From a virus, in the IMG/VR virus record IMGVR_UViG_3300028194_000428, positions 1 through 26,135 of that record: a stretch of DNA of 26,135 bases. The stretch is one strand, 5' to 3'. Under the pieces are notes generated by a model. It was not told the origin of the DNA and did no database searches. It worked only from the letters and a program-made list of their open reading frames with translations. Positions 37 to 21,500 of the stretch are shown here, one piece after another. The translations under genes and the position numbers were made by a program. Position 1 is the first letter of the stretch, and the number at the start of each line of letters is the position of its first letter.

Positions 37-393
37 TTATATTCTCTTGCCGATAACTGCACCGAGCGCAGCACCTACAAGACGTGAGGTTAATAAATCG
101 TAAAGAGCACCCTTTGTAACTCCTAGTACTTTAGCTACTGCTTTACCTATTGTCTTTCCTAATGCAAAACCAGTAAGACCACCAAATATACTTCCTAAAA
201 CACCTTCATTAATAATCTCCTCAACACAATCTTCTAAATTCTTTCCATTTTTTTGAGCTTCGATTATTCTATCTACTGTAGAATCTATTGCATCTTCTTG
301 TTCTTTTGATAAATCATGTGATTCATTCAATAGGTTTTGAACATCCACACTCTGATTATGAGATTCTTGTAAATAGTCTTTAAAGGTTTTCAT
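37..393 (-). CDS. Putative internal head pro-protein with glycine-zipper C-terminus
   Basis: This 118-aa protein starts MKTFKDYLQES, close to the ten-residue capsid-targeting leader of T4 internal proteins (MKTYQEFIAE, from memory). Residues 1-63 are acidic, about 16 D/E against 6 K/R. They contain two full matches to the T4 prohead protease gp21 consensus (I/L)-x-E|(A/G): IIE|A at 43-46 and INE|G at 61-64. Two near matches end in Ser, at E10 and E24. Residues 64-118 are cationic, about +6, and carry two glycine zippers: G67, G71, G75, G79 and G83, then G107, G111 and G115. I infer packaging into the prohead and cleavage that frees a membrane-active or membrane-spanning peptide of about 55 residues. 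It could instead be a small scaffold component like T4 gp67 or gp68. No signal peptide is seen. The gene follows the tail-tube-fold gene after 25 nt. Confidence 0.6.
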   Translation of the reverse strand: MKTFKDYLQESHNQSVDVQNLLNESHDLSKEQEDAIDSTVDRIIEAQKNGKNLEDCVEEIINEGVLGSIFGGLTGFALGKTIGKAVAKVLGVTKGALYDLLTSRLVGAALGAVIGKRI

Positions 394-418: not shown

Positions 419-973
419 TTAGACCACATTAACAACAACATCTAAGATGTTATAGCCAAAAGTAATATCAAAAGTTTGAAATTCAATAGTATTACTTGAA
501 AAATTTAAATCCAAGGCACCTACTTCAGAAATAAACATATCTTTTAATTGAACAGTTACAAATACAGTTCCATCAGCATCAAGCATTTGTACACCAACAC
601 CTTCAGGTAAATAAGGATGCTTACCGCTTAATTTATAATAAAAGTCAAACATTTCTACGGCCATCCAGTAATTCACATAACCGTCAAATGCTTGCATAGT
701 AACAGTCATAGTCTTATCAAATAATTGTTGCTTTGGTAAGCTAGCTCTAAACGCTCTTTGATTACCTGGATAGTCTACTTGAGTTACAGCATCAAATGAA
801 GGTCCTGGTAAATTTAAAGATTGTATTCCATAATTCCAATAATCAATAGGTTCTTTAATTAACCCACCAGGAATTCTAGTAAGAAAAGGTTTATACTTTT
901 TAGCAATTGGCTCAGGTATAAAGTTTCTTGGAAAATCAAATTTAAATTGATTATTTCTTGCGCTTAATATCAT
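419..973 (-). CDS. Tail tube-fold protein (gp19/gp48/gp54-like)
   Basis: A 184-aa protein with the layout of T4-type tail tube proteins. A strand pair around IQSLNLPGPSF (50-60) is followed by FDKTMTVTMQAF (85-96), a central helix (98-115), and a final beta pair. In that pair VQLKDMFISEVGALDL (141-156) and NTIEFQTFDITFGY (161-174) parallel the end of gp19, where an IEIKG strand leads through VGEL and SNNEIQTFEVTL. T4 gp19 is 163 aa, so the size fits. In T4 the tube protein gp19 and the tube initiators gp48 and gp54 share this fold. The gene lies among baseplate and appendage genes rather than beside a sheath gene, which favours a tube initiator or minor tube protein, but the main tube protein cannot be excluded. 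Its start overlaps the stop of the 296-aa gene by four bases (ATGA), so the two are probably translationally coupled. Confidence 0.65.
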   Translation of the reverse strand: MILSARNNQFKFDFPRNFIPEPIAKKYKPFLTRIPGGLIKEPIDYWNYGIQSLNLPGPSFDAVTQVDYPGNQRAFRASLPKQQLFDKTMTVTMQAFDGYVNYWMAVEMFDFYYKLSGKHPYLPEGVGVQMLDADGTVFVTVQLKDMFISEVGALDLNFSSNTIEFQTFDITFGYNILDVVVNVV

Positions 974-3283: not shown

Positions 3284-3291
3284 TATTTATT
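3284..3291 (-). promoter_or_regulatory. AATAAATA element before the 467-aa gene
   Basis: AATAAATA on the gene strand, seven nt before the ATG, overlapping the stop of the 261-aa gene. This is too close for a normal promoter with a leader, so an A-rich translation signal is the likelier reading here. Confidence 0.2.
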
Positions 3292-4076
3292 TACCATTGC
3301 AAAAGCTTTGGGTTCCACGAAACACCTAATCCGATATAAGGGCCAAAATTACCTTCACCTGTAATTCCCATTCCCATATTAATACCAAACCCAAAAGGTT
3401 TTCTATTTTTCATTTGTATATTTTTAAACTCAGGACTATTTTGATCAATCATAATTCCTTGAGTATTATTAAATGTTGTACCAGGATAATCAGAAGTTAA
3501 TTTAATAAAAACTTCTTTTGTATTTAAGTCTTGTGACAGCGTAGCATCTAACCATATATTTTGTTTTAATCCTATAGTAGCAGAACCAAACATTAAACTA
3601 TCAGTAAATGTGTAAGGTAAAGATACATCAATTAATCTTGAGCTCTTTTCCCAATTACTTTTAGAATTAAAGCTTAATACTGATTTAAAATCCACACCAT
3701 CTTGTTTAACAACAGTATCTTTAGTTTTAACTGGAACTTCTACAATTCTTTCTTCTACAATTGTTTTATATTTTACAATTGTTATAGGAGGTCTACTCTT
3801 TTCATATTTTAAACTATCTCTTAGTTCTTCTAAGGATAAATTTAATCCCTTAATCTCACCGACCGATTCACCATTTTCATTTACATAATTGAGAATAGTA
3901 TCATTAGCTGCCTCAAGATTATTCTGAAATCGAGTAACTTCCCCTTTAGCTTGTTCAGTTTCATTACACTGTCTAACTAGTAAAAATAATAACACTCCTA
4001 TCCCTCCTAATAAAAACATCCTAGTGTTTTTTGGATCGGTTAAAATACCAAGAATATTTTTAATAATTAATATCAT
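3291..4076 (-). CDS. Membrane-anchored, spanin-like protein (DUF6808-type)
   Basis: A 261-aa protein with one N-terminal membrane helix (about 19-35, FLLGGIGVLLFLLV) followed by a Cys at 37 and a coiled-coil stretch (about 40-92). A stalk rich in Val, Lys and Thr follows (about 94-126, including VEVPVKTKDTVV). The C-terminal half is beta-rich and ends in a glycine-alternating hairpin, GFGINMGMGITG then GPYIGLGVSW, and finally Trp. This layout resembles proteins of Bacteroidota phages annotated DUF6808 or Rz-like: inner membrane anchor, periplasmic coiled coil, C-terminal beta segment. A role in disrupting the envelope at lysis, or in the periplasm during infection, is inferred. No endolysin or holin is visible nearby, so a lysis cassette is not shown. 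Its start overlaps the stop of the 78-aa coiled-coil gene by four bases, which suggests the two act together. Confidence 0.55.
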   Translation of the reverse strand: MILIIKNILGILTDPKNTRMFLLGGIGVLLFLLVRQCNETEQAKGEVTRFQNNLEAANDTILNYVNENGESVGEIKGLNLSLEELRDSLKYEKSRPPITIVKYKTIVEERIVEVPVKTKDTVVKQDGVDFKSVLSFNSKSNWEKSSRLIDVSLPYTFTDSLMFGSATIGLKQNIWLDATLSQDLNTKEVFIKLTSDYPGTTFNNTQGIMIDQNSPEFKNIQMKNRKPFGFGINMGMGITGEGNFGPYIGLGVSWNPKLLQW

Positions 4077-17877: not shown

Positions 17878-18537
17878 TTATGTAGTTGTATATCCTACTC
17901 CACCAACAACGTACCAAACGCCTACGCCTGATCCATTATCAATACATAAGAGATGTACACTTTCACCAATTTGGTTTAAATTTAAATTTGTTACAGCTAC
18001 ACCGGTAGTGTTGTTACGCAATACCAAGTTTCCTGATACTCCATTAATTGTTACCAAACCACTTCCGGTAGTATATACAAAGAAAATTTCTTGTCCTATA
18101 CTCCCATTAAATAATGATAAAGTTAAAGTGTTAGTTGTATCGGAATTTCCAACTCTGTTAATTGTATAAGGAGGGATAGCTGTTGTAGTTCCTATATTGA
18201 TAGTAGCAGGCATTGATTGCCCGATATCATCTAAAGTAACTGGATTAGTATCATTTCTAAATACACCACCACCGGTCATATTTAAATTTCCTGTCATCTT
18301 AACATTTGTTAAAATATCGAATGTGCTTGCATTAATATCTAATAATATTGTACTTAAACCAACTCTTAACGCTTCTGATGAAAGATTTGCTAAATTGGTT
18401 ATGGTACCAGCAGCAGGTGCAAAGTAAACCTCCATTGCATTAATTTCGCTGGTAAGAACATTAAAATTATCATTAATTACTAGTCTTGATCCTGATAAAG
18501 AATCAGTTCCTAAAATTTCTGTTACGCTAATTGCCAT
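17878..18537 (-). CDS. Small fibre-like or baseplate-attached appendage protein (219 aa)
   Basis: Residues 1-34 (ISVTEILGTDSLS, then NDNFNVLTSEIN) resemble the N-terminus of the 921-aa collagen fibre and are probably the part that attaches to the virion. Residues 50-110 are strand repeats ending in the fibre-like pattern VKMTGNLNMTGGGVFRND. Residues 110-219 are beta-rich with Gly, Asn and Thr (GQEIFFVYTTGSGLVTINGV, then VGVWYVVGG), suggesting a small C-terminal knob. No coiled coil, membrane helix or catalytic motif is seen. It is separated by one base from the 1380-aa gene before it. In P2-type phages a fibre gene (H) follows gene I, so this place fits a minor fibre or a capping protein of the wedge. 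The fibre role is inferred. Confidence 0.6.
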   Translation of the reverse strand: MAISVTEILGTDSLSGSRLVINDNFNVLTSEINAMEVYFAPAAGTITNLANLSSEALRVGLSTILLDINASTFDILTNVKMTGNLNMTGGGVFRNDTNPVTLDDIGQSMPATINIGTTTAIPPYTINRVGNSDTTNTLTLSLFNGSIGQEIFFVYTTGSGLVTINGVSGNLVLRNNTTGVAVTNLNLNQIGESVHLLCIDNGSGVGVWYVVGGVGYTTT

Positions 18538-18538
18538 T

Positions 18539-21500
18539 TTATTTTGTTTGTTTTATATTTAAGATATTTCTATCTTTTTTATATTTATTCCCATTCGTAT
18601 CAGTAAGTTCTAATGTTATCATATACTTTCCTGGGTCTTTAAAAAGATATGTTAGATACTTGCTATCAAAATATATATCAGCCACTGATGAGTTAGTAGT
18701 ATTAGAGATAGTCCATCTTGCCTCTGCTTTACCAACTATTCTACATTTATCATATACAAACATAGCCCATGTCATAGGAGGTAATACTTTTCCATCATTA
18801 ATAAATAGAGCAGTATTCCAGGTTGGGTTGTTTGATATACTTTGGCTACTTTTATAAATTTTACTTAAACAATCAATGTTTCCACCTACTGGACTATCTT
18901 CAAATGGTATATATCCTGATAATCCACCCGTTGCAAACATACTATCTAGAATACTTGTACTTGGTTTTGCCAATACTGTGCTTATATAGCTTACATACAA
19001 TGCATGACCTAATGGATTTGTATCTTTTACATCTGTTGCTGTTATTGCTGTCCATTCTGGTGCTAAAGTTCCACCACTAATGTAAGGTGCAATAAATCCC
19101 CACTCTGCATAAATTAATAAGTATAAATACTCTCTCATTAATAATGCTTGGAACTCATCGTTAGTATCACCAGGCTGAGGGCTGTAACCAGAAATATCAA
19201 ACACTCCATTATTTATTGCCTCAGTCATAGCATTATATGTTGGGCCATACGGTGATGTTTGGTTAAATTCTATTGGAAATGCACCAGGTAATCCAAATGT
19301 TGTTAAAGTATGTAAAGCATGTTCTAATACTTCTGTGATTTGTGATTCTGGTGAAACATTATCCAGTTCCCAAATAAAATCAACGTTTGCGTTAGTATCT
19401 CGCGTTTCATCCCAACCAACATAAGAGTCTAATGGTGGATTATATGCAGCCATACTTTCATAGCCTATCATCTGTATAGTTTTCTTTGATCGTAATGATT
19501 GTAAGACAGCTGATTGTTTATTATAATTTATTCCAGCACTATTAGGATCTAATATCATTTCATATACTCTTGCTATCTTTTTAACATATTCATCAGATAC
19601 TTTTTCAGTTCCACCCAATGATGGTAAAGCTACTAATGTAGTTCCGTTTATTGATAGTGATCTATCGAATGGTGGATATAATGTTGTTGGAGTTAAAGGG
19701 CCGCCTACATATTCTGTAGAATTACCAGTTCCTTCCGCACATATTCTAACACCATCAACATCAACCATGTCTATTGAAGTAAAATTACCAAATTTTCCAT
19801 AATACCTAGATACCGCTTGTACAAATATTTGGCTACTTGCCGCATTCATTACTAAGTTATATACATACTTATTAATTACAGGATCAGTACTTACATTAAG
19901 AATGTCTACCGCATCTCCTAAAGTAGTTACAGAAAAATCAAAGTATTCTAATCCTACTTTACCATCTTTATCTATAATCTTTAAATAAGTATTTGGTTTA
20001 ATAGTACTAAATTCAAAAAATGCAGGCGTGTCACCAGTCGTGGCTGTCATATCCCACCATAAGTGATAACCATTGTCCCAAGTACAACTAAGATCATTTA
20101 AATTTTTCCATTGATAAGGTCCACTAAAACTAGCCTTTCCACTGTTTTGAAAATTCATTAGCTGAAAGTCTGTACTTGTACCTATGCCAAAATTATTAAG
20201 AATAGCATTTACTCTATCTAAGGATTCATATAAACTTGGTGTTTCTTCATCCCATGTAGTTCTAGGTTCAATTGGTAAATCCCATAATGAACCATAGTCT
20301 TTCCAGGTATATTCACCTTCTTCACTCCAAGTATATTCTTTTTTTCTAGCTTGATACCATCCTGAATATTGTACTTCTCTAGCCTCAACACAAATTGCAT
20401 CAACCTGTATAGAAGAAGATATACTATTATACATATCAAAAAGTTTTAGCTCTACTGAATAATTTCCAACATAAGGAAGTGTAATAGGTAAAGTATTATA
20501 TTTTGCTACAGGACCTCTTACACTAAAGAAATAAGCAGGTGATACTCCTGGATCTTCATCTTTATAAACAGTCCATTCCATTTCATCAATGTTAGCAAAG
20601 TTTACACCATCCCAAGTATATAAAGTTTCACCCGGTTGTTGTACTGTAGTAAATCGACCACCGCTATTTGAATCTGCTAAAATTACAGAAGCTTTAAATC
20701 TACTAACATTATTACCATAACATCTGATAGAAGGTCCGAATGTAGCGTCATTAATTTGAGACCAATCAAACCATAACCAAGGATCAACTTGATTTTTCTT
20801 TTTATGAACTATTTGATTGAATAATGATGTTGTAATTGTTTGAACAGTATCAGTATCTGTAACTGTATGAGTAGCACCAGTAGAAGTAGCAGGATCTGTG
20901 AATTGGTAAATATCTCCAACATTAGGACCTTGTACATTAAAATCAAACGTAAAATAATCATTAGCATTACTTACTTGATTCCATGTACTACCTATATTAT
21001 TCCAAGTAATATTATTAATGCTTGTATTTTTTAATGTTATTAAAGCTCCACTAGGAATGCCCGGTTGATCTGGTAAAGATTTAGAAGATTCTCCTGGTAC
21101 AAATTCAGCCTGTGTTCTATTTAAATTTGGGGCGTATCTTGCAAAATAAGCAAGGTATACACCAGCACAGTCTGAAACACTAACATTTCCACCATTTTGT
21201 AATGCACCTAAAACACTATTAGGATCTGGGCCAATTGGAGGAGGTGGTAAAATCTCACCTGGAACATAATCTACAATCATATTTTGTCCAACTGCAACCT
21301 TTCCAGCTTTAAGTGGAGCAACGTATGCATTACAAAAATCAATTACAGCTTGCCCAGTGACAGCACCTATTTTTAAACAAAATTCATTAAAGTCTCTAAG
21401 GTCTTCTAAATATGTACATGACTCAGGGCCTACTTCAAATGTTGCATTAATACCAGCTTTAATTGTGTTAGTATCATTTCTGCTTATTGTATTTGTAACT

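Follow-up and report, generated by a model that had tools for sequence, protein, structure and literature searches.

A conserved cationic glycine-zipper peptide as candidate T4-type internal head protein of marine phages and Lak megaphages

In several phages, e.g. T7 (gp14-16), P22 (gp7/16/20) and SPN3US (E proteins), proteins stored in the head exit together with the DNA and function in the cell or at its envelope; some of them are matured by proteolysis. For T4-type phages, with their contractile tails, the way in which DNA and packaged proteins get across the inner membrane is, to our knowledge, still not settled. The T4 internal protein (IP) IPIII is directed to the prohead by its first ten residues, within which positions 4 and 7 serve targeting and positions 8 and 10 processing, and the protease gp21 cuts after L/I-x-E (PMC9026906). 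In the T6SS effector Tde1 a glycine zipper is required for inner-membrane permeabilisation and crossing, and zippers of this type have also been noted in phage tape-measure proteins (PMC10240207).

The window analysed here is a virus record of 26,135 bases, the minus strand of which carries T4-type tail genes. The last gene of this tail gene series (37-393, minus strand, as are its features given below) starts with ATG and encodes a zipper precursor of 118 residues, MKTFKDYLQE...GAVIGKRI, which is composed of a head-targeting-like N-terminus (residues 1-10, 364-393), an acidic, fast-changing linker (residues 11-63, 205-363) and a predicted mature cationic peptide of 55 residues (64-118, 40-204). 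The preliminary description had placed the feature at 49-195, i.e. residues 115 back to 67, and thus covered only the two glycine series. Relatives of the precursor are encoded in at least 160 IMG/VR loci: two scans confirmed 152 and 429 stretches, respectively, from each of which 80 loci were kept, and three further loci came from an IMG/VR scan with a distant member, giving an alignment of 83 distinct rows. Nonsynonymous differences per codon are about a third as frequent in the mature half as in the linker (0.09 versus 0.30) at similar synonymous levels (0.31 versus 0.27), and this purifying selection, together with the homologues, indicates that the gene is real.

The carriers are a large group of T4-type ocean phages and the gut Lak megaphages. 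Among 50,697 records of cultured phages, searched up to an E value of 10, the only hits were LR756500 and 15 Lak records, which are likewise metagenomic, and a pattern-limited search of bacterial genomes confirmed no homologue. The family has no described function in Pfam, NCBIfam or PHROGs; phrog_22557 (E about 2e-4 to 6e-4) spans nearly the entire mature part, but is itself a family without function. A search of solved structures by sequence gave no significant match to the zipper protein, and among open-access papers we found none on glycine zippers in phage ejection.

The family N-terminus, MKTFKDYLxE, has the same layout as the capsid-targeting sequence of T4 IPII and IPIII, MKTYQEFIAE, an exact match to which opens both T4 ipII and ipIII. 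In the family alignment the positions mapped in T4 are the constrained ones, with entropies of 0.28, 0.61, 0.77 and 0.48 bits at positions 4, 7, 8 and 10, as compared to 1.89, 1.51 and 2.65 bits at the variable positions 5, 6 and 9, and all four targeting positions (bulky/aromatic 4 and 7, L/I at 8, E at 10) fit in 74 of the 83 rows. The motif [FY]xx[FY][LIV]xE is also enriched at ORF N-termini of two 180-kb relatives, with 6 occurrences versus 1.05 expected (P 7e-4) and, in the second of them, 8 versus 1.37 (P 9e-5), both counts including the zipper gene itself. These genomes (G001 and G002, 178,737 and 181,663 bases, loci L175-L194) each encode about 8 to 15 proteins with tag-like N-termini, among them, as named by eye, a protein resembling an ATP-dependent DNA ligase (G001 174421-175713) and an AAA-like protein (G001 125451-126788). 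As a set, the tagged proteins look like packaged cargo. In two further loci, L086 (6321-9438) and L087 (6198-9051), the zipper gene is directly followed by a run of small genes, most of them with capsid-targeting-like N-termini such as MKSLSSYLTE↓A, MKSLYDYITE↓A and MKNLQQIKESLILE↓S (arrows mark likely cuts); between them lies one untagged gene with similarity to endonuclease VII (PF02945), and one tagged gene carries DUF5824. These runs are a possible packaged-cargo island.

A gp21-type prohead protease (PF03420) scores above cut-off in all eight relatives tested, including LR756500 and Lak-C1; it was counted in relatives, the window contig being a fragment without that region. Three likely cut sites can be found in the precursor: LQE10↓S at the end of the tag, LNE24↓S (residues 22-24, 322-330) and INE63↓G (residues 61-63, 205-213). 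With V allowed, the [L/I/V]-x-E motif fits at E10 in 75 and at E24 in 77 of the 83 rows. E63 and G64 are present in 82/83 rows, E63 being invariant in every readable row, and the junction reads INE↓G in 40, TNE↓G in 25, VNE↓G in 11 and LNE↓G in 3 rows. Residue 61 is I or L in 44, V in 13 and T in 25 rows, the latter forming one clade that lies outside the T4 L/I-x-E rule. In L086 and L087 the same zipper module follows ELNE↓G behind an unrelated precursor of about 160 residues, and this joining of one module to a different precursor at the NE↓G junction supports the cut at or near E63 that had been proposed. The alternative precursor (L086 5665-6140, L087 5536-6010) begins with VNGMGEVSLPANGEVGSGDVP, a sequence that resembles the N-terminal arm of the G001 major capsid protein, GMGNVSLPSATADGSGDKAP. 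The major capsid proteins of the two 180-kb relatives have an L-x-E close to where the N-terminal cut would be expected (LNE↓S in G002, LYE↓D in G001), which, in our own reading of these sequences, may correspond to the T4 cut site. The prohead protease of these relatives (G002 18182-19903, G001 132108-134003) has a long tail fused to it in which YxxYLxE-like units recur, so that protease and scaffold look like a single protein.

Based on the tag-like N-terminus, the protease in 8/8 relatives and the LNE↓G module junction we infer, with good support, that the precursor is likely to be both packaged and processed in the head. Packaging of the precursor and the cut at E10 are highly probable, and a cut at E63 seems probable, with cutting at exactly this residue moderately supported in view of TNE↓G in 25/83 rows. 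The suggestion that the peptide is stored inside a capsid gains support from both the match to the mapped T4 targeting sequence and the gp21-type protease of the relatives. The idea that the acidic half is one partner lost by a single cut does not hold, as this half contains the ten-residue tag and the second likely site; moreover, the middle of the acidic part is the least conserved, which makes a specific pairing with the zipper unlikely.

The charge split and the conserved glycine register are confirmed as real observations. In the window protein the recalculated charge (K+R-D-E) of residues 1-63 is -10 and that of residues 64-118 is +6, in agreement with the preliminary description, and the same division into acidic pro-region and cationic zipper is found across the 83 rows, with a median of -14 (range -20 to -6) before and +6 (range +1 to +6) after E63. 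All eight glycines are located as claimed, i.e. five in i+4 spacing at 67, 71, 75, 79 and 83 (first zipper, 145-195) and three at 107, 111 and 115 (second zipper, 49-75). When the 55-residue C-terminal half is shuffled, a five-glycine i+4 run arises in 0.7% of shuffles, or in 3% if steps of 3, 4, 5 and 7 are all permitted, so that on a single sequence the run is suggestive and post hoc; it is the conservation across relatives that lifts the register above chance. Loss of the register in homologues had been set beforehand as the refuting test, and the register is kept: 81 of 83 distinct rows, at 45-100% identity, retain all eight glycines, and the only exceptions are the two Lak phage rows, one of which is probably shortened by Lak's in-frame TAG, read as Q in the alternative code. 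At about 35% identity the Lak module has lost half of the register (T, G, S, G, M at the positions 67-83 and L, G, G at 107-115 in Lak-C1), but keeps E63-G64, G71, G79, LLTS(R/K)L, G111 and G115. The LLTSRLVG motif of the window protein (residues 100-107, 73-96) is similarly constant, T102, S103, R104 and L105 being present in 82/83 rows and also in Lak-C1. Beside the glycine stripe and overlapping the first zipper runs a lysine stripe, K80, K84 and K88, with K or R at these positions in 78/83 rows.

Structure prediction of residues 64-118 as monomer, which had been proposed as a check, yields a helical hairpin, though with medium confidence only: AlphaFold models two helices, 65-90 (26 residues) and 96-117 (22 residues), with a pLDDT of 72.8, the full-length model (58.6) being too poor to use, and a fold search with the mature model gave no match. 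The first helix consists of an uncharged, glycine-rich half followed by the half with the lysine stripe, and the stretch 65-79 is without any charged residue. Hydrophobicity over 19 residues reaches a maximum of 1.45, below the usual transmembrane threshold of 1.6, and a classical transmembrane pore or holin was therefore rejected. A hydrophobicity below that of a classical transmembrane helix fits a peptide that stays soluble until assembly and is equally compatible with a soluble bundle.

The genomic setting is conserved as well. The zipper gene lies directly after the tail tube gene (419-973, minus strand, phrog_45, in the window) in 148 of 155 readable loci, L086 and L087 being counted among the exceptions though their tube gene is also directly upstream, and a RuvC-like resolvase gene comes next after it in 156 of 160 loci. 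Further neighbours in the window are large structural proteins and, as weak matches, gp25-like and baseplate-J/gp6-like proteins. A counterpart in LR756500 exists for the gene at 3291-4076, which is located three genes upstream of the tail tube gene; its product of 261 residues has a hydrophobic segment at the N-terminus and weakly resembles DUF6808 and DUF6549, with scores below cut-off. A few relatives carry extra genes between tail tube and zipper (L092 2512-4312, L152 286-741 and L066 5418-5993, the product of the last starting with MKTFDLIEEQ), and another five-glycine i+4 run, GNMLGGFLGSQVGGQTG, occurs in a 599-residue G002 protein without PHROGs match (133084-134883). In Lak-C1 the surroundings differ, the zipper gene lying about 4.5 kb from the prohead protease gene. 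Phages of Tenacibaculum and of Chryseobacterium have related tail tubes, and Prevotella is the host of Lak phages; thus, the host here is probably a member of the Bacteroidota. Profile searches of two Tenacibaculum phages and one Chryseobacterium phage (cultured, with related tail tubes) and of four uncultured phages of 634-735 kb with related tail tubes did not find the zipper gene.

Taken together, we tentatively favour, at somewhat less than even chances, a T4-type internal head protein that releases a cationic glycine-zipper hairpin, which would be ejected with the DNA and open or line the inner membrane, the membrane step being putative. The first ten residues would bring the precursor into the prohead core, where the gp21-type protease would cut after E10, E24 and E63 and the acidic pieces would be discarded. 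Until then the acidic pro-part may maintain the solubility of the peptide and prevent it from harming the producing cell. The hairpin would stay in the head, its positive charge holding it against the packaged DNA, and on infection would exit together with the DNA or before it. The two glycine-zipper helices may then pack as an oligomer in the inner membrane of the host and aid the passage of DNA and of other packaged proteins. What is seen directly is the sequence with its charge split and conserved register, the tag-like N-terminus, the protease gene in relatives and the conserved neighbourhood; on this basis we infer that the peptide is probably ejected, and it could permeabilise a host membrane, a putative step for which the chances appear slightly below even. 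As T4 uses the same head-targeting scheme and has no zipper homologue detectable by profile search, the peptide is not needed for ejection in all T4-type phages.

Part of the evidence also fits a prohead-core or assembly factor (gp67/gp68-like), in which the targeting sequence would keep the precursor in the core, the zipper would be the anchor of the nascent prohead in the inner membrane or at the portal and the cut at E63 would free the prohead from the membrane, with no ejection. T4 proheads do start on the membrane and detach upon gp21 proteolysis (PMC9026906), the genes of the cleaved T4 core proteins (67, 68, 21 and 22) follow the portal gene and adjoin tail genes, just as the zipper gene follows a tail gene, and three likely cut sites are reminiscent of core proteins that are cut to several fragments. 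Nevertheless, we consider this unlikely, since core fragments are mostly discarded, yet no other part comes near the conservation of the segment beyond the last cut, and since the profile search of T4 returned no zipper homologue. A soluble basic internal protein, the hairpin of which binds DNA or a host protein while the glycines allow tight packing of a soluble bundle, would be in line with the small, basic T4 IPs that are injected with the DNA and of which IPI blocks a restriction enzyme (PMC9026906), with the low hydrophobicity and with the LLTSRLV motif, a potential contact site that is kept where Lak loses glycines. However, T4 IPs are poorly conserved between phages (PMC9026906), as an arms race predicts, whereas the zipper half is nearly fixed, and a charge-free stretch such as 65-79 is unusual for a soluble domain of 55 residues, so that this reading, too, has a low probability.

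The position directly after the tail tube gene in 148/155 loci would suit a structural component of the tail tube or the neck, in processed or unprocessed form, whose zipper lines or seals the end of the tube, but a head-targeting N-terminus is unexpected on a tail protein and the different Lak-C1 surroundings, with the prohead protease nearby, argue against it, making it highly unlikely. It is extremely unlikely that the peptide is a holin, a superinfection-exclusion factor or an antibacterial peptide produced in the infected cell: the resemblance to cationic GxxxG peptides is general, and opposed to it are the head-targeting N-terminus, the structural neighbourhood, the lack of a second peptide gene and the absence of any match to a lysis or defence family. 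Thus, the superinfection-exclusion and bacteriocin-like roles suggested in the preliminary description find no support, the gene lying in the tail-tube region and bearing a head-targeting tag, with no partner peptide. A two-peptide bacteriocin (class IIb) was rejected as there is no tandem second peptide gene and the neighbours are tail tube and RuvC-like resolvase, and a defence-system reading as no defence family matched.

Ejection with putative membrane activity hence stays the best single reading, although held with slightly less than even confidence. It may be speculated, doubtful as this is, that the family represents a previously unrecognised class of T4-type ejection peptide, freed in the head by proteolysis, DNA-borne, forming an inner-membrane glycine-zipper conduit for the genome and many tagged cargo proteins, and that the 540-kb Lak megaphages have this class in common with abundant marine phages. 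A small, highly conserved candidate for a head-packaged membrane peptide provides a concrete molecule for the question of inner-membrane crossing, and the T4-style tag makes large sets of head-packaged proteins recognisable in abundant, mostly uncultured marine phages.

Among known systems, the Pfam families PF13488 (Gly-zipper_Omp), PF05433 and PF13441 share the glycine periodicity; with the mature alignment 23/23 members weakly match PF13488 and PF05433, but the window protein stays below the curated cut-offs (25, 24.2 and 28.9, with 18.1 and 19.9 bits for PF13488), and these families are outer-membrane or lipoprotein domains, i.e. belong to a different context. To the ejection proteins of short-tailed and giant phages (T7, P22, SPN3US) the peptide compares in the way it would work, homology not being detected and the window phage being T4-type contractile. 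The N-terminal zipper of Tde1, a T6SS DNase effector, and the tape-measure zippers have in common with it tandem GxxxG in a short segment and, as proposed for the peptide, entry into a target cell by way of a contractile machine; in contrast to Tde1, the window peptide has no nuclease domain or adaptor and would be a separate peptide from a capsid precursor, so that this, too, is a works-like comparison, not homology. T4 IPII and IPIII and the window family are both small proteins with the ten-residue N-terminus MKT(Y/F)xx(F/Y)(I/L)xE, E at position 10, a basic mature part (family median +6) and a gp21-type protease. The window family matches no T4 protein and differs by two further likely cut sites, the long acidic linker and its cargo, a glycine-zipper hairpin nearly fixed over a wide phage group, whereas T4 IPs vary. 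The zipper family is best placed with the T4 internal-protein kind and is not a separate kind of system.
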